A stretch of DNA of 45,524 nt, taken from positions 1 through 45,524 of the IMG/VR virus record IMGVR_UViG_3300033145_000223; one strand, written 5' to 3'. This document shows positions 11,547-45,524 of the stretch, one piece after another; the stretch's first letter is position 1, and the number at the start of each line of letters is the position of its first letter. The DNA is from a virus. Under the pieces are notes generated by a model. That model did not search any database. It worked only from the letters and a program-made list of their open reading frames with translations, and was not told where the DNA came from. The position numbers were made by a program, and so were the translations under genes.

Positions 11547-14500
11547 TTAAATTAGGTGGTCAAAAGACTTCTGCTCCCATGCGGTAGATTTCTTTTTCTT
11601 CTTCTTCGGTATCGGCTTTGGATTCTCAAGCTCTGCAATCTGACGCTCCCGGAATTTCTGGAAATGACCGGCTTGAGGCAACATGTGGACAAACAGCATA
11701 TATGCCGCCGCAACCTGGTACACCTCGCAGTTTCCGCAGATTACGACCTTGCCGTTTCTCCTGACAATCAAAGTTCCATTCGGAACAGTGGCACAATAAA
11801 CCATCCCGTCATAATGCACGTTCTTGAATATCGGTCGATGAATCTTGTCTTTTCCGTATCTGTTGAGATGACATTGTTTTGTGAGTTTTCTGGATACATG
11901 ATACTGGTCAACTGTGTTTTCCCCATATCGACCTCGTATATTATATGGTTTCGCTTTTCTTGTTTTCATCACTGTGGCAGAACCGACCTTCAAAAACAAT
12001 TCCTGAATATCATCGGCAAGACGCTTGCTCACCGTAGCGTACCATTCACGCCCATTATCTACCCAACCATCTCCAGCGATTGCACCCCGAAGATATGCTT
12101 CAATCACATTCGGGGAAGCGTCTTTAATCCACTGTGGAATAAACTTCGTATATTTATCTCCGAGTTTCCTTACAAGATTATACGCTTGCTGCCGTGAAAT
12201 CACAAAACCTCTGTCAGTTTCATTGAATCCCCACGGCATTTTTCCTAATACCCTCCGTAGAACTTCTCTTCCTTCACCTTCATTTTGATAAATCACAACA
12301 CGCCTTTTTATGCTTGACGGTTGCGATCTGTGAATTATTGACTGGCAACAACCTTCTGCGATATACCAGCCAAGAAATTCAGCCAAATGCTCCGCGTCCA
12401 CACGTTTTTTTTCATCATATCGAGTAGCGGGAAGCTCGTAATACTCAACTCCGGTTCCAATCCAATTTGAAGCAGTTTTTAATCGGCTGTTCTTTGTCAA
12501 CTCACATGCTTTTCTGATATTGATATTACCCCGCTGGCTCAAACATACCATTCTATGGTTAGGGGTTACAAGCATATCAAGACGACTTCCACGCTCACCT
12601 CCGATCTTCACCATATCACCGCAATGCCACTTACTTATGATTTCTGATGGTTGCTGATACTCAATAAGGTCTTTTTCGATATTCACGGTCGCAAGAATGT
12701 CGTATTTGTCTATGTTTTTGAAATACTTCCACCCTCCGCGAGTAAGCACTTCGGTTTCCTCGTCATAGCAGTCACGATAGTCGATACGGACACTCGCTTC
12801 CTTCGGAACCCATCGCGGCTCCTGCTTTCGACCTACCGGAACCTTCTGCATATTGCCCATGTGCAGATTATACTCGATTGATTTGCCCTTTTCCGAGCGA
12901 TTTAGATGCCACATTTCCGCCTCGTCGGTATCCCCCGTACCAACGGTGATAAGATCGGTTAATACATCCTGGCACTGAAGAACGTCAATCCACCATAAAT
13001 ACAGGTTCGGGGCGGTCTTTTTCTTCTTTATACGGCGATAACGGCGGTCTTTTCTCGCATTTTGCTCGTTAGCATACTCCCTACCGCGCCAAAACGGGAG
13101 GCCTTCCTTTGAACTCGCCGCGCCTTTGATAGCCAATACCCGCCTATCATCGACACGTTGCACCCATTCGTACACCTGGGTCGTCCTCGATTTCTCCTCG
13201 TCCTTTAGTTTCGTGCCGCCCGAATCGATTAAAAGCAGTTCAACGCGCATCGGATGAAGCCGCCCGTCCTCGATAGGCCATTGATAGTTCAATATCTTCG
13301 ACCGCACGTCCTCGAATGAGTGGAGGATGCCGTGATAGACACGTTGACTCCGCATACCCGCGCCCCACGCCCGAACTACAACGTAAAAATGATCGTGCTG
13401 TGTATCGACAGTCGCAATCAGCTTTTGACCCCACAGCGGCACGATCCCCTCGTCGTGTGTCGCGCATTTCACCTTGTCGTCGTAAACAGACGCCTTGACA
13501 TCCTTGAGCAAGTCCTCGAATGGTAATCCGAGGGTCTCCGTTCGGAATGTGTACTGCTTGTGTCGGTCTCCAAGCGCCTCGACATAAAGAACCGCGATAT
13601 TTCGCCATGTTTCCCACAGGCAATAAAGTCCGCCACACTGCAAGCCGAGCGTAGTGCCTTGCGGCCACTTCTCGACAGCCTCCGCGTCTGTGATTTTGCC
13701 GTCTAAAGTGCCCCATTTACCCGCCTTGACCATCGCATCTCGCTCTTTTTCCTCGATTCGTCCACCGCATTCCTGGCAAATGTAGTACGTTCCCTGGTCT
13801 TTTATCCACTCAATAGTCTCTTTTCGGGATTCGTCCTTGAGCGAAAGGTACTTTAGCTGCTGAAATATGAGCGGAATCCGCTTGCCACACCGCGGACACG
13901 GGACTAAAAAGTAGAGTTGATACGTACTCTCGGTGAACAGCGTGTAAATCTGGCCTGTACGGAGCGTCGGTGTACTGATATTGATCTGCATCTTGCGATT
14001 TGTGTAGGTCCGCATCCGGGTCCAGGTCCGGCCAACCGGATTTGGTTCCGCGCCGCCCCATTCTTGGAATTTGTCCACCTCGTCACAGATAACACGCCTC
14101 ATAGGGTTTCCCGCGGTAGACGCCGCGGAGCCGGACCACATGAGATGCAGGATGAACGAATTATTGAGCTTGATCTGCGATTTCTGCATGTCCGTCATTT
14201 TCGCCGGCAACAACGGCTTGAGAATCGGCAAATATCGCATCATCGGAGCCACACGGTTGCTGATAAAGAACTTGCCGGTCTTTTCATCTGGGAATGCGAC
14301 GCCCATCGGATCAGGTTCACGGGACGCCCAATACGCAATCAGGTTAAGAGCAGCCCGCGTATATCCCATCTGCCCGGCCTTGACTGCCGCAATCCGCTCG
14401 ACACCGGGAGCAACACACAAATCCATAAGCCCGCGGAGATATGGCGTGAGTTCATTTCGCCACGGGCCGGGATGCGCGGACTGATCTTGCGGGAGAACGA

Positions 14501-14594
14501 GATACTCTTCCGCCCACTCGGAGGGCTTGAGCGGCGGCGGGACGTGCCACGCCTCGCGCTCTGGTGGTGTGAAAATATTAATTCGTGGGATCAT
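11547..14594 (-). CDS. terminase large subunit (GpA family) interrupted by an intein
   Basis: The 1015-residue precursor contains a 668-residue terminase split by a 347-residue intein (residues 609-955). The ATPase half has a Walker-A-like KAGQMGYTR (72-80) and a Walker B RRVICDEVDKF (166-176). A zinc pair CPRC...CQEC lies at 233-276. The nuclease half has TVDTQHD (about 395-401), LLLIDSGG (453-460) and YRD just before the intein, rejoined to CEVYQVAAAYM after splicing, the GpA-type C-terminal signature. TerL cuts concatemers and drives DNA into the prohead through the portal. The C-terminus is lysine-rich. Start ATG 14594 has AAGGAA upstream and overlaps the previous gene by 17 bases. Confidence 0.92.
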   Translation of the reverse strand: MIPRINIFTPPEREAWHVPPPLKPSEWAEEYLVLPQDQSAHPGPWRNELTPYLRGLMDLCVAPGVERIAAVKAGQMGYTRAALNLIAYWASREPDPMGVAFPDEKTGKFFISNRVAPMMRYLPILKPLLPAKMTDMQKSQIKLNNSFILHLMWSGSAASTAGNPMRRVICDEVDKFQEWGGAEPNPVGRTWTRMRTYTNRKMQINISTPTLRTGQIYTLFTESTYQLYFLVPCPRCGKRIPLIFQQLKYLSLKDESRKETIEWIKDQGTYYICQECGGRIEEKERDAMVKAGKWGTLDGKITDAEAVEKWPQGTTLGLQCGGLYCLWETWRNIAVLYVEALGDRHKQYTFRTETLGLPFEDLLKDVKASVYDDKVKCATHDEGIVPLWGQKLIATVDTQHDHFYVVVRAWGAGMRSQRVYHGILHSFEDVRSKILNYQWPIEDGRLHPMRVELLLIDSGGTKLKDEEKSRTTQVYEWVQRVDDRRVLAIKGAASSKEGLPFWRGREYANEQNARKDRRYRRIKKKKTAPNLYLWWIDVLQCQDVLTDLITVGTGDTDEAEMWHLNRSEKGKSIEYNLHMGNMQKVPVGRKQEPRWVPKEASVRIDYRDCYDEETEVLTRGGWKYFKNIDKYDILATVNIEKDLIEYQQPSEIISKWHCGDMVKIGGERGSRLDMLVTPNHRMVCLSQRGNINIRKACELTKNSRLKTASNWIGTGVEYYELPATRYDEKKRVDAEHLAEFLGWYIAEGCCQSIIHRSQPSSIKRRVVIYQNEGEGREVLRRVLGKMPWGFNETDRGFVISRQQAYNLVRKLGDKYTKFIPQWIKDASPNVIEAYLRGAIAGDGWVDNGREWYATVSKRLADDIQELFLKVGSATVMKTRKAKPYNIRGRYGENTVDQYHVSRKLTKQCHLNRYGKDKIHRPIFKNVHYDGMVYCATVPNGTLIVRRNGKVVICGNCEVYQVAAAYMLFVHMLPQAGHFQKFRERQIAELENPKPIPKKKKKKSTAWEQKSFDHLI
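11730..12770 (-). other. intein with LAGLIDADG homing endonuclease, inside TerL
   Basis: The intein starts at Cys609 (block A: C-YDEETEVLTRGGW) and ends at Asn955 (ATVPNGTLIVRRNGK then ICGN), followed by Cys956 as the +1 nucleophile. Block B is VTPNHRMV with the expected T..H. Two LAGLIDADG helices are visible, LAEFLGWYIAEG (737-748) and YLRGAIAGDGW (834-844), so the homing endonuclease looks intact and the element may be mobile. The penultimate residue is Gly rather than the more common His. The insertion point follows Asp608, a probable active-site residue of the terminase nuclease. Confidence 0.92.
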
Positions 14595-23974: not shown

Positions 23975-23999
23975 GAAAAATCTTGGAATTATTTCTTCA

Positions 24000-24233
24000 C
24001 CAAACGAGATTTCGTTCCAAAACGATTGACGCCATTCGCAAAACGAAGTTCTGTTTCAAACCCGCCGACGCCATTCGCCTAAATGAATTTCATTCTAAAA
24101 CCATCGACGCTATTCACGAGAACGATTTTCGTTTCAAAACAGTTGACGGCAATCACCAAACGAGTTTTCATTTCAAAACGTTTTCGACCATTCACCAAAA
24201 CGATTTTTGTTTCAAAACGTTTTGCGTAATAAG
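24000..24233. repeat. 39-bp tandem repeat array, block 1 (6 units)
   Basis: Six contiguous 39-base units without spacers. The consensus on the plus strand contains CCAAAACGA, TTTCGTTTCAAAAC, then GACGCCATTCA. The unit includes AAACGA...TCGTTT inverted bases, and some copies contain the palindrome CAAAACGTTTTG. The period of 13 codons keeps a frame open on the plus strand, but there is no convincing start site and block 2 shifts frame. The block lies just upstream of a consensus promoter and of initiator and helicase genes, as origin iterons often do. Confidence 0.85.
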
Positions 24234-24324
24234 TGCCACCGGAACCGCCATATACCTACGTTCCGTGGCCCCTACCTTCGATATGCCATGTTTCGGGCCT
24301 CCAGATCGCCGTCGAGACCATTCG

Positions 24325-24558
24325 CAAAACGAGTTTTTGTTTCAAAACGTTTTGGGCCATTCACCAAACAAGTTTTTGTTTCAAAACAGTTGAGGTCATT
24401 CACAAAATCAGATTTGATTTCAAAACCATCGACGGCAATCACTAAAACGATTTATTTCTCAAAGTCGTCGAGGCCAATCACCAAACAAGATTTCGCCTCA
24501 AAGTGATCGAGGCCATTCACTGAAACGAATTTTGTTTCAAAATGATCGAGCTAAATCA
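24325..24558. repeat. 39-bp tandem repeat array, block 2 (6 units)
   Basis: Six further units of the same repeat, followed by part of a seventh. They are separated from block 1 by about 90 bases that break the period and the frame. The later copies diverge more (for example CTCAAAG in place of TTCAAAA), suggesting the array is decaying towards 24.6 kb. Confidence 0.8.
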
Positions 24559-24599
24559 CCAAAACGAGGTCAAAAAAGATATGCCTATCTTCATACTTC

Positions 24600-35145: not shown

Positions 35146-35295
35146 CTATACCTGCCCCATGCCCTGTTCACGGAGATAAGCGTCTATGGCTTTGCGTACA
35201 TGCCACGAGATCGACAGGTCAGTTTCCTCCTTGAGTACCAGGAGCTTGTCGTGTTGTTCTTTGTGGATCGTGACGTTTAATGCCTGCTTTTCCAT
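35146..35295 (-). CDS. ribbon-helix-helix protein
   Basis: 49 residues from ATG 35295 behind CGGAGAG. The layout QALNVTIHKEQHDKLLVLKE, then TDLSISWHVRKAIDAYL is a classical ribbon-helix-helix: a short strand, helix A, a turn, helix B. Such dimers bind operators; it could act on the early promoter palindrome at 36166-36190. No toxin gene is beside it. Confidence 0.75.
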   Translation of the reverse strand: MEKQALNVTIHKEQHDKLLVLKEETDLSISWHVRKAIDAYLREQGMGQV

Positions 35296-35330: not shown

Positions 35331-35396
35331 AGTGCTCGGTAGGATTCTAACCTACATCATCCCTGCCGGTCGCTCTAACTTTTGAGCTACGAGCAC
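35331..35396 (-). tRNA. tRNA-like gene with shortened anticodon arm
   Basis: On the minus strand there is an acceptor stem GTGCTCG / CGAGCAC (extended by two further pairs), TA at 8-9, a D stem GCTC / GAGC with an 8-base loop, and a T arm GTAGG TTAGAAT CCTAC. Between the D and T arms only 16 bases remain, where about 22 are normal, and they do not form a 5-bp stem with a 7-base loop. The molecule looks like a tRNA without a usable anticodon. No CCA is encoded. Confidence 0.55.
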
Positions 35397-35400
35397 TTAT

Positions 35401-35468
35401 GAGCGGGAAGGATGGAGATGTTTTTACAAGGCCTCTACTCCACGGCTAATGCCTGTCTCATCCCGCTC
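35401..35468 (-). other. hairpin between ribozyme and tRNA-like gene
   Basis: GAGCGGGA and TCCCGCTC form a perfect 8-bp stem around a 52-base loop, directly next to the tRNA-like gene. No T run follows. It is part of the structured RNA cluster 35331-35765. Confidence 0.5.
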
Positions 35469-35526
35469 AATTTCTGCGAGTCGCTGAAGGCGTGCCCCCT
35501 GGTGGACAGTTATTCCCCGGCTGTAT

Positions 35527-35590
35527 CCACTCCGCGCGACGGTCACTGCTGACCGTTTCGGCCTTCGCCTCATCAGGCGATAAGAGGTGG
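35527..35590 (-). ncRNA. type I hammerhead ribozyme
   Basis: All conserved core bases are present on the minus strand: CTGATGA, stem II GGC-GAAG-GCC, GAAA, then stem III ACGGTCA / TGACCGT (7 bp, loop GCAG) and GTC. Stem I is CGC / GCG, an internal loop, then CCAC / GTGG, leaving it open at the outer end, which defines type I. Self-cleavage is expected after the C at 35538, leaving a 2',3'-cyclic phosphate and a 5'-OH. It lies between two tRNA-like genes in the early transcript. The GAAG loop and the internal loop of stem I could form the tertiary contact usual in active natural ribozymes. Confidence 0.88.
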
Positions 35591-35651
35591 CGGGGCTTAC
35601 GTCCCCGCCTTTCCGGGACAGATGTTGCCTGCACAGGGGCACAGTGGCAAC
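35589..35651 (-). other. two hairpins upstream of the ribozyme
   Basis: GGCGGGG / CCCCGCC (35589-35609) is a perfect 7-bp stem with a 7-base loop touching stem I of the ribozyme. GTTGCC / GGCAAC (35624-35651) is a 6-bp stem. Part of the first could instead pair with CCGGGG beyond the ribozyme and lengthen its stem I, giving an alternative fold. Confidence 0.55.
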
Positions 35652-35693
35652 CCACGCCCTCAACGCTCGCATAATATTTTCAAAGAACAATGA

Positions 35694-35765
35694 GATAGCC
35701 GGTGGGACTCGAACCCACAACCGCAAGCGCGTACGCCAGTCCTCTACCAATTGAGCTACGGCTAT
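35694..35765 (-). tRNA. tRNA or tRNA-like gene, anticodon arm unpaired
   Basis: 72 bases on the minus strand: acceptor ATAGCCG / CGGCTAT, TA, D arm GCTC-AATTGGTA-GAGG (one mismatch), and a perfect T arm GTGGG TTCGAGT CCCAC. Spacing is normal, and position 33 is T, which would give anticodon ACG (Arg). The two sides of the anticodon stem, CTGGC and CTTGC, do not pair. It could be a decayed tRNA, or one that folds in another way. No CCA is encoded. Confidence 0.65.
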
Positions 35766-35800: not shown

Positions 35801-35890
35801 TTATTTCGCCTTCCTTTCCTTTTCATACTCGTCGAATTTTGCCTTGCCCGCCGCTGCCGCCGCGAGTGCCAGTAAGATGAGTAATTTCAT
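35801..35890 (-). CDS. 29-residue peptide with hydrophobic N-terminus
   Basis: ATG 35890 follows AAGGGG. A hydrophobic segment (KLLILLALAAAAAG) is followed by a charged tail (KFDEYEKERKAK). This is like a signal-anchored or membrane micropeptide. It lies between the first gene of the operon and the tRNA cluster. Confidence 0.5.
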   Translation of the reverse strand: MKLLILLALAAAAAGKAKFDEYEKERKAK

Positions 35891-35924
35891 GGTCGATGCC
35901 CCTTATTATCGGCTCCCTCGTCAG

Positions 35925-35969
35925 CCCCGGCTCGCCATGCCAGAGGACGCCCGTGAGGGCGTTTCGGGG
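35925..35969 (-). ncRNA. structured RNA, possible three-way junction
   Basis: CCCCG / CGGGG closes the element. Inside are ACGCCC / GGGCGT with a four-base loop and a second weaker stem CTC / GAG. It starts directly at the stop codon of the 36-residue gene. No T run follows, so a terminator is unlikely. It may stabilise or process the mRNA. Confidence 0.45.
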
Positions 35970-36080
35970 TTATGATTCTTCGTCTTCGTAGGTTTTGGGA
36001 TCGTCGATAACCCAGAAAACCTCACCGCAGATCGTGCATTTGCCGGTCTCCATGCTGATGATGTGCTCGTGATTCTCCAT
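35970..36080 (-). CDS. 36-residue protein with one CxxC
   Basis: ATG 36080 lies behind AGGAG, 42 bases after the predicted start of the early transcript, so it is its first gene. The peptide has a single CTICGE motif and an acidic C-terminus. A zinc-bridged dimer is possible. Short first genes of this type are often host takeover factors, but nothing proves it here. Confidence 0.5.
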   Translation of the reverse strand: MENHEHIISMETGKCTICGEVFWVIDDPKTYEDEES

Positions 36081-36199: not shown

Positions 36200-38530
36200 A
36201 CCGCTGATATAGGTGTGTAGTATATAGCGGTTTATGGGTTGCGATATATTAAAGACTGTGAGTCTTATAAATGTGAGAATAAGTCTCACATGCAACGCTG
36301 AAAATTTCTCATATCTTGCGTGCGCATCAGAGGTATAGCACCGGGGCGGGATAGACGGGGTTATACCCTCACAAAGCCGTATGGGGTATACGTTCCAATA
36401 TGCGCACGACAGGATTTATTTTTGATCGAAAAACATCCAAGTTAGCGTATTTACGGACATCGTTTTCAACAGATTTCCCGTCCTTGCATCTGACATTGAC
36501 GCATAGCACCAGGGCGGCTCTGGGAGGGGATGCTGCCCTTTAGCCCTACTGCCGCATACATTCCAGCAAGCAGGCAACAATATATTTATTTGCGACCAAA
36601 ATCTTTTTGAAAACATATCTTGACACCATATCCAACTGAAAACCGGGCGCTTTGTAATCGCCTATATACCAGCGAGTTACAGGGCGATATTGAGATATTA
36701 CACAGCCATAATTTATTCCTACCGCACAAAAGCTGGAACGTAGCACCGGGGCGGCTTTGATGGTGTATACCCCTCTGGAAGCCGCATGGTTGCTATAGGT
36801 CAATGTCGCAAAACATTTCTTTTTTCTTGCAGGCAACGAGTGCCAGTGTCGTGATCTTCGTATAACCCCGCTCGATTTTCAGCATTTCAGGCAACCAATA
36901 TTCGATATTGAGGCGTGTTTTGACGCCCCGAAATCGGATGTATACTGGTAGCCGTTCTAAATGGGTTTCCTGTTTCGCGGTGTCTGTTTCAAAGTTGGCA
37001 TGGAGCATGTCGTCGGGCTGAAATCGGCTTGGAACGTAGCTATATCACCATCCATTTTTTGACTCGGAATATTTACGTTTTTATATTTACGTTTTCATAT
37101 TTCTTGTGGCACACCAGCACCCTCCAGACCCGCATAAACAGTGCGTCCAAGCGGTATAAAGTTTTCGTTGATCGCAAAACCGAAAACGTTTTTGTTTTAG
37201 AATGTTTTGAAAAGCGTGTTCTGAATGCTTTTGAAACAAAAACGTTTTTGGTCCTGTGTTGATTTGAAAACACACCCCTCTGAAACCCGCATAAACAGTA
37301 CGTGTAGAGGGTGCATGGTGGTCAAAGGAATTCTAAAAACGCAAAAACAAAAACGTTTTTTTGGCCGCCCAATTCCTGCAATGGTGATATAGCTGCGTTC
37401 CAGAGGTTTTTCTATAACGCTGTCTTGAGAGTTCCTGAATTTTTTCTGACATGCTGAATACTCAATACCGCTGGAAACGGCCACTGGTATACGTTTGATT
37501 TCCGACCTTGAAATATGGTCAAAATAGCGGTATTCAGGCGTCTAAAATCGCATTATTTACACAAGACTGCTTTGAAAAACTGGCTTTTGTAGACCGTATT
37601 TGAGTGTCGGTTTTCAGGAGTCTAAAACGGATGTACGCTATTGCTTGATTCCAGCGGCTTTTTGAAATGTTGACGTCTGAAAACAATTGGAATATCGAGA
37701 TTTCATAAAACCGAAATACGCTTGGGATGTAGTAATATCACCATTCCACAGGTTGAAGTAGAATATTTATGTTTTTGTTTTTGCGTTTTTGTAATTGCTA
37801 CGACACATTGACACCCGCTACACCCGCATGGATACACGTTTCCAGAGGCATCGAGTTTTATTCAATCGCAAAACGAAAAACATATTTGTTTCAAAAGTTT
37901 TCAGAATCTCACTAATCGCCTGAAACGGTCGCACTTTCGGGATAACCGAACAGAACATTTTCAGTTTTAACATATTGCAAAATGCTTTTCCTCACGTTTT
38001 TATTTTTCCGCTTCTACCATCGGTACGTAGCGCCGGGGCGGGTTCGCAGGGGGTATGTGCCTTACAACCCTTACGGGCAGTACGTTCCAGCATACGCGCG
38101 ACAGCAATTTATTTTGACCGATAACACGGGGGATTATCACGGTTTCAAGATCGTTTTACGTCAAATAACCACACGGGGTGTCTGACATTGTGACATAGCA
38201 CCAGGGCGGCTCTGAGGGTGGTGGCTACCCCCCACACTTACAGCCGTATAGGTTCCAGCTTTTCCACGACAGGATTTATATTTGACTCAAAACAGATTGA
38301 GATAGCAGATTTCCGGGCCTTTCACGGTCGAATATCGACGCCGGTATAACCCGGTATATACATTAAGTTATAGCTGTTTATTTGCGAATAACGCGAGTGG
38401 AAATAAATCGCGCTGTGAACAACCCAAGATGTATATTCAGGGCGGCTATGGCGGTATACGACACCCTCAAAGCCACGCCATTGCTGTGGGTCAACGACAG
38501 GCAATAGGTCACGATATTTACAATGAGCGC
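36200..38530. repeat. non-coding region with many degenerate copies of a dispersed element
   Basis: About 2.3 kb without a credible gene. The word TAGCACC.GGGCGGC occurs near 36334, 36504, 36741, 38024 (GCGCC variant) and 38194, with a partial copy near 38431. In four cases it is followed about 55 bases later by a CGTTCCA or GTTCCAGC word, then CGACAGGATTTAT or a variant. Between them lie sequences such as AAAACGTTTTTG and its reverse, related to the 39-bp repeat at 24.0-24.6 kb. In one frame several copies read alike (APGR, then YVPA, then RQ), but stops interrupt most of them. Confidence 0.7.
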
Positions 38531-45353: not shown

Positions 45354-45524
45354 TTACTCGAATTTGATTTTCGGCCCGTCGTCGCCTGCATCTATCACGC
45401 GACGGATTGCGAATTCTGCGTTATTCGTCTGCTTGCCGTCACGATCACCCTCCTGAAGATTCGTCCACTGCAAGCCTGCCCCGGAGGTGTAAATCGTGAT
45501 CTTGTTGCCTGCCGCGCCCCACGA
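45354..45524 (-). CDS. major tail tube protein (3' end, plus repeated part)
   Basis: This segment holds the last 18 codons of the tube gene (45357-45410) and TAA 45354-45356. Bases 45411-45524 duplicate the start of the window. Read with 1-903 it completes the 319-residue protein. Confidence 0.85.
   Translation of the reverse strand, partial: SWGAAGNKITIYTSGAGLQWTNLQEGDRDGKQTNNAEFAIRRVIDAGDDGPKIKFE
45411..45524. repeat. terminal direct repeat, copy 2 (circular join)
   Basis: Exact copy of bases 1-114. See copy 1. Features in this part are the same as at the window start. Confidence 0.95.

Follow-up and report, generated by a model that had tools for sequence, protein, structure and literature searches.

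Two tRNA-like elements with altered anticodon regions lie among hammerhead ribozymes and small open reading frames in a phage genome

Introduction

Theta ribozymes, which are HDV-like, adjoin phage tRNA genes of Caudoviricetes and have been proposed to trim the 3′ trailer of the tRNA (PMC10879173). Likewise, several hammerhead ribozymes can occur in one prophage region, for example flanking ardA in Agrobacterium (PMC3088659). Here we describe a phage locus in which two tRNA-like elements, t1 and t2, occur together with two hammerheads. The locus belongs to an IMG/VR record of 45,524 bases (IMGVR_UViG_3300033145_000223), and the whole of this stretch was analyzed and is referred to below as the window.

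As far as the accessible part of the theta ribozyme report goes, the likeness lies in the association of a self-cleaving ribozyme with Caudoviricetes tRNA genes, among which tRNAs of undetermined type are also found (PMC10879173). However, the ribozymes there are HDV-like, whereas here hammerheads are located before and after t1, with the type I cut predicted approximately 155 nt past t1. Rfam scans of the window gave no match to an HDV-like ribozyme, and the locus is therefore not a theta unit. The prophage hammerheads of the Agrobacterium type are similar in that more than one hammerhead adjoins phage genes and in that types I and II are common in bacteria, but tRNA-like genes are not mentioned in the available portion of that account (PMC3088659). 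GOLLD and ROOL are, in the accessible part of their description, large structured RNAs near phage tRNA islands (PMC12286853), but neither had an Rfam covariance match in the window. Prokaryotic tRNA gene fragments and pseudo-tRNAs are also tRNA-like sequences that are not canonical tRNAs; in contrast to t1 and t2, which keep both acceptor strands, these fragments were left by integration, according to the part of the source available (PMC9897764). Among the titles and abstract openings of open-licence PubMed Central articles, a collection from which subscription journals are largely missing, we recognized no report of hammerheads flanking phage tRNA genes or of phage tRNA genes that lack this arm of the anticodon.

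Results and Discussion

The phage record and its relatives

Positions 1-114 and 45411-45524 of the window are identical 114-base ends, which makes it probable that the record represents a complete phage genome, either circular or with terminal redundancy. The portal and terminase of the phage are of the lambda type. The gene encoding the terminase large subunit (11547-14594, minus strand) contains an apparent intein-like insert (CYDEETEVLTRGG ... VVICGNC), as judged by eye. Diverged noncoding repeats with approximately 65-77% identity, some of them common to both regions, were observed at 23996-24581 and 36336-38292, which are long stretches without clear genes.

No close relative of the phage was present in the phage collection, and octapeptide scans of viral contigs, based on the portal and on the 49-amino-acid (aa) open reading frame (ORF) that follows t2, found no relatives. 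Likewise, the exact t1 pattern had no match in viral contigs, and t2 had none at an E value of ≤1e-4 in 294 genomes. A scan of genome contigs for relatives of the phage returned six loci, all distant. Terminase alignments led to a group whose members are 38-45% identical to the terminase of the window. A tRNA match was detected in 5 of the 27 group records searched and in 0 of 15 in a further set, while the type II hammerhead was found in none of the 27, in a search whose controls likewise gave no signal. The nearest terminase relative with a tRNA (G001; 37.6 kb) encodes a normal tRNA-Met and has only head and packaging genes in common with the window; early genes are not shared.

Organization of the locus

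Rfam matches in the window comprised three RNAs, two tRNAs and one type II hammerhead, all on the minus strand, and t1 and t2 were the only tRNA matches of Rfam and ARAGORN in the 45.5 kb. Read along the minus strand, the locus starts with a promoter-like site (36156-36129; a consensus match only), which is followed by a 36-aa ORF whose translation contains a CxxC motif (35970-36080), the type II hammerhead (35907-35969), and a 29-aa ORF with a hydrophobic start in its sequence (35801-35890 including the stop codon; 35804-35890 without it). Next are t1 (35694-35765), a folded domain around a type I hammerhead (35474-35672), a hairpin (35399-35473), t2 (35331-35396), and a 49-aa ORF (35146-35295) that weakly resembles a family of phage repressors and has its ATG approximately 35 nt after t2. 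A DNA methyltransferase gene completes the order.

The type II hammerhead begins at the base directly after the stop codon of the 36-aa ORF. It has the conserved core, scored 47.7 bits with RF02276 (gathering cutoff, 37 bits), and was also recovered by descriptor; the alignment places its predicted cut at 35946/35945. An earlier note on this DNA had placed a hammerhead between two tRNA-like genes; this hammerhead is real and belongs to type I (core at 35538-35576, minus strand). Its core comprises CUGANGA, GAA, and UH, with stems of 3, 3, and 7 pairs and an open stem I, and the predicted cut falls after 35538. The type I descriptor is expected to give 0.017 hits per shuffled window, while no Rfam hammerhead model matched at this site at an E value of ≤1. 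A wider descriptor for all three hammerhead types found exactly two in the window, namely, those of type I and type II. Cuts at both, if they occur where predicted, would release an RNA of approximately 408 nt.

The domain around the type I hammerhead is closed by a long-range helix and strongly folded in prediction (−105.5 kcal/mol; z, −5.7), and the hairpin directly before t2 has 9 bp (z, −2.9). The DNA between the tRNA-like elements, part of the structured cluster of the earlier note, is thus strongly structured. The type II hammerhead, which lies outside the region then considered, had been missed.

Both tRNA-like genes were found where the earlier note had seen them. In searches of 1.4 kb, t2 scored 47.0 bits (E, 1.4e-8) and t1 scored 41.0 bits (E, 6.8e-7) as Rfam tRNAs, far above chance in both cases. 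The acceptor (7/7), T (5/5), and D stems of t2 are fully paired, with ensemble probabilities of approximately 0.88-0.99, and t1 likewise has 7/7 acceptor and 5/5 T pairs. A decoding tRNA combines such paired acceptor and T stems with a 5-bp anticodon stem and a 7-nt loop. In t2, only 16 nt separate the D and T stems, compared to the usual approximately 23, and the predicted ensemble fold retains only a 2-bp remnant at the position of the anticodon arm. As this arm is absent, t2 is clearly not an ordinary decoding tRNA. Loop positions 19 and 56 of t2 are changed and, as read from the sequence of this single case, could pair as U-A, which would favor selection on its shape.

A possible cassette of RNA cutting signals

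We tentatively propose, at somewhat less than an even chance, that t1 and t2 are non-decoding former tRNA genes in a same-strand cassette of RNA cutting signals, in which they would serve as punctuation. In such a cassette, a deletion would have removed the anticodon arm of t2, while t1 would have been left with an anticodon loop one base short and with no clear anticodon. The cassette would be transcribed as one RNA, in which the hammerheads would cut themselves between the small cistrons and host enzymes would cut the tRNA-like folds. Cleavage would divide the transcript and create new 5′ ends, including one approximately 35 nt upstream of the start codon that follows, which may be of benefit. 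The acceptor and T stems are the main features that RNase P requires in its substrates, and t1 and t2 are possibly still substrates of this enzyme. Such processing appears plausible from the anatomy of the locus, with its small same-strand ORFs and two hammerheads, and from a similar layout in an unrelated phage with hammerheads (L004; see below).

Several observations argue for the punctuation proposal. In the window, small ORFs are interspersed with hammerheads and tRNA-like elements, all of them on the same strand. Among six viral loci found with a type I hammerhead pattern, three (L002, L003, and L004) contain two or three hammerheads each. The L004 cores are located at three ORF junctions (5162-5122, 2583-2549, and 2259-2221, minus strand), at or just after ORF stop codons and before the next start codon. 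In addition, L004 contains a 51-nt tRNA-like element that has 7 pairs in the acceptor stem and 5 in the T stem but no anticodon and that is located 34 nt upstream of an ATG. Finally, a terminase-group relative of the window (G035) has a tRNA-like element (L437:1501-1595) with approximately 20 extra nt in the anticodon region, which ARAGORN reads only with an intron. Located between two ORFs, this element overlaps the 170-aa ORF at its stop codon, and 23 nt separate its end from an ATG.

Other observations argue against punctuation. The combination of hammerheads with a reduced tRNA-like element was found in only two of the six loci, as the same 51-nt element (23.4 bits) is present in L004 and in the record of L002. 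These two share hammerheads and look like one phage type and therefore represent one independent case, in which, moreover, the minimum-energy fold predicted for the 51-nt element is not the tRNA-like one. A third locus of the six (L005) is from a record with two ordinary tRNAs, which are far apart, and ARAGORN called no tRNA in any of the six loci themselves. Moreover, the hammerhead descriptor found nothing in 80 viral loci with short-gap tRNA-like elements (defined below) or in 78 loci with normal tRNAs, and the pairing of hammerheads with tRNA-like elements is therefore not general. The poor folding of t1 in silico also counts against the proposal. A wider form of it, which we consider unlikely, is that some phages combine self-cleaving ribozymes with neighboring anticodon-less tRNA-like elements to have their RNA cut between cistrons; here, the approximately 408-nt RNA would carry a small ORF and t1 and would have ends suited to circle ligation.

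Short anticodon regions in viral tRNA-like elements

A pattern of tRNA D and T arms separated by a gap of 13-21 nt (usually 26) matched at least 120 stretches of viral contigs. It does not match t2 itself, which has an A at T-loop position 56. The short-gap set consisted of 80 loci of these at least 120 stretches; 78 elements were measured, and 2 of the 80 were cut by the locus end. When viral contigs were scanned with a gap of 13-30 nt, a short gap was present in 2 of 110 matches (with the 80 loci being those among the matches listed, of at least 120 stretches). Viral tRNA-like elements with a shortened anticodon region are thus uncommon but recurrent. In contrast, no short-gap match was detected in 398 bacterial genomes of one phylum, while normal-gap matches were present in all 60 of 60 bacterial genomes (587 in total). 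The contrast between viruses and bacteria gave a Fisher P value of 7e-4, which rests on an extrapolation of the 587 matches to 398 genomes of that one phylum.

The 43 distinct short-gap elements included 20 without an arm, 16 with a short hairpin, and 7 with a stem of at least 4 pairs and a 7-nt loop. Rfam called the short-gap element in 10 of the 12 loci tested, and ARAGORN called none of the 45 elements with six or seven acceptor pairs. A covariance model was built from 24 short-gap elements, and as these were chosen for paired acceptors, pair counts on them are not used as evidence. This model scored t1 at 54.8 bits and t2 at 50.3 bits. In 78 loci, it gave 289 matches, normal tRNAs among them, of which 12 were ≤68 nt as read from the table. 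Since it also finds normal tRNAs, the model does not separate the classes.

Some further unusual elements were encountered. A separate conserved family (L198, L202, L224, L236, L247, L265, L269, L270, and L277) has tRNA-like D and T arms that enclose the core AACTGGCGACAAC; a hairpin of the CATACGAAAGTATG type and another T arm come next, and the family is found partly on contigs of 200-270 kb. In Lactobacillus phage A2 (L099:1100-1460), there is a cluster of odd tRNA-like elements. It consists of a called tRNA-Leu(taa) whose anticodon stem is weak and only 4 bp long, a remnant of a T arm, and, as judged by eye, a tRNA-like element with a long insert in the D loop; part of this stretch is conserved in other Lactobacillus phages. 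In L258 (675-1247 and 226-286, both minus strand), a ROOL RNA adjoins a tRNA island, one member of which is a short-gap tRNA-like element.

Selection on tRNA shape or decay

About equally likely as punctuation, and so likewise short of an even chance, is plain decay, in which t1 and t2 would be tRNA pseudogenes that are no longer needed, arisen by one deletion (t2) and a few changes (t1) and otherwise still undecayed, while the hammerheads would have a role of their own and be neighbors by chance. The short-gap elements speak for such an origin. For gaps of 20-21 nt, their residual structure (−2.41 kcal/mol) compares with −2.61 kcal/mol under a deletion null, and the residual hairpins are therefore explained by one deletion across the anticodon in otherwise ordinary tRNAs. 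Among the matches listed, acceptor stems of the 78 viral short-gap elements had 7/7 pairs in 37 cases, 6 in 8, and ≤5 in 33, while only 4 of 108 normal viral tRNA-like elements had ≤5/7. Because one deletion explains the shape and 33 of these 78 listed elements have damaged acceptor stems, decay is a serious rival, and the mismatches in two stems of t1 also agree with it. On the other hand, t1 and t2 both keep their acceptor and T stems fully paired. In 2 of 2 cases, the damage lies only outside these stems, which is suggestive but by estimate not significant, and it would have to be a coincidence that two hammerheads are placed between the ORFs here.

The earlier note had taken the retained body and the altered anticodon arms as a sign of selection for tRNA-like shape. 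The present results do not establish this, as one deletion is enough to remove the arm and leave the body intact, so that such a loss alone does not demonstrate selection. The residual mini-hairpins were also considered as a selected class; they exceed mononucleotide shuffles (0/200), but the deletion null explains them, and this candidate was rejected. Two further candidate marks of the short-gap elements were examined with identical copies counted once and elements near a locus end left out. Upstream structure did not differ from that of normal viral tRNAs, and the elements are not nearer to start codons (6/41 compared to 14/102 for normal viral tRNAs; P = 1.0), so that this candidate was also rejected. 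Both results count against the punctuation proposal, and, together with the hairpin result, they either weigh against selection on shape or are neutral toward it. In favor of such selection, the elements of L206 and L275 have a common 10-nt core, and their acceptor stems, although different, are both paired. This pair only hints at compensatory change following the loss of the arm, because the search pattern forces the D and T arms.

Could t1 decode?

It is improbable that t1 still functions as a tRNA, with an unusual anticodon loop of 6 nt that might read an Arg or Val codon, and that only t2 is a relic. Such a role would agree with the cloverleaf drawn by ARAGORN, which called only t1 in the window, left the amino acid unnamed ["?(Val|Arg)"], and paired 4 of 5 positions of the anticodon stem (C-G, UxU, G.U, G-C, and C-G) around the loop GUACGC, in which a U precedes A-C-G. 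Furthermore, among the genome matches read, the t1 body is closest to ordinary Trp and Thr tRNA genes (approximately 80%). However, a 7-nt loop is nearly universal in tRNAs, the anticodon stem has a U.U and the D stem a G.G mismatch, and the nearest bodies carry other anticodons. The D and T arms are also unstable in silico, with ViennaRNA ensemble probabilities of only approximately 0.16-0.18. An alternative anticodon fold with a 4-bp stem and a UACG loop has a somewhat better energy (−21.0 compared to −19.2 kcal/mol). The U-ACG in the loop had prompted an assignment as tRNA-Arg(ACG), for which we presumed a likeness to the E. coli sequence; this assignment is weakened by the Trp and Thr genes being nearest. 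With 4 of 5 anticodon-stem pairs and a 6-nt loop, t1 is likely not an ordinary decoding tRNA.

The view that both genes are something other than ordinary decoding tRNAs is hence supported, clearly for t2 and as likely for t1, and the ARAGORN check that had been suggested for a t1 fold with a clear anticodon yielded a cloverleaf to which no amino acid could be assigned. The anticodon arms had been described as abnormal in both genes. The arm of t2 is indeed lost, but the t1 stem is mostly paired with a 6-nt loop, and its earlier reading as an unpaired stem with normal spacing came from a register one base off. Sound acceptor, D, and T arms are confirmed throughout t2 and for the acceptor of t1, while the description was generous for the t1 D and T arms.

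Very improbable is a role as decoys for tRNA-targeting defenses or toxins, with the body kept for binding and the cleavable anticodon loop gone: phage tRNAs countering anticodon nucleases are known from the accessible parts of work on PARIS and T5 tRNA-Lys (PMC13015707; PMC12409363) and t2 has no anticodon loop to cut, but the anticodon stem-loop is the target of the anticodon nucleases that are known, and a decoy for them would need to keep it.

Implications for phage tRNA genes

If t1 and t2 are relics, they call for caution, as loss of the arm with an intact body (2 of 110 viral tRNA-like elements of the tested consensus, among the matches listed) arises by one deletion. If they are processing signals, broken-looking phage tRNA genes need to be reread, and the locus would be a compact operon in which two methods of RNA cutting are used side by side. 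Should the wider and unlikely form of the punctuation proposal be true, such "broken" phage tRNA genes could form a functional class of processing elements missed by tRNA finders.
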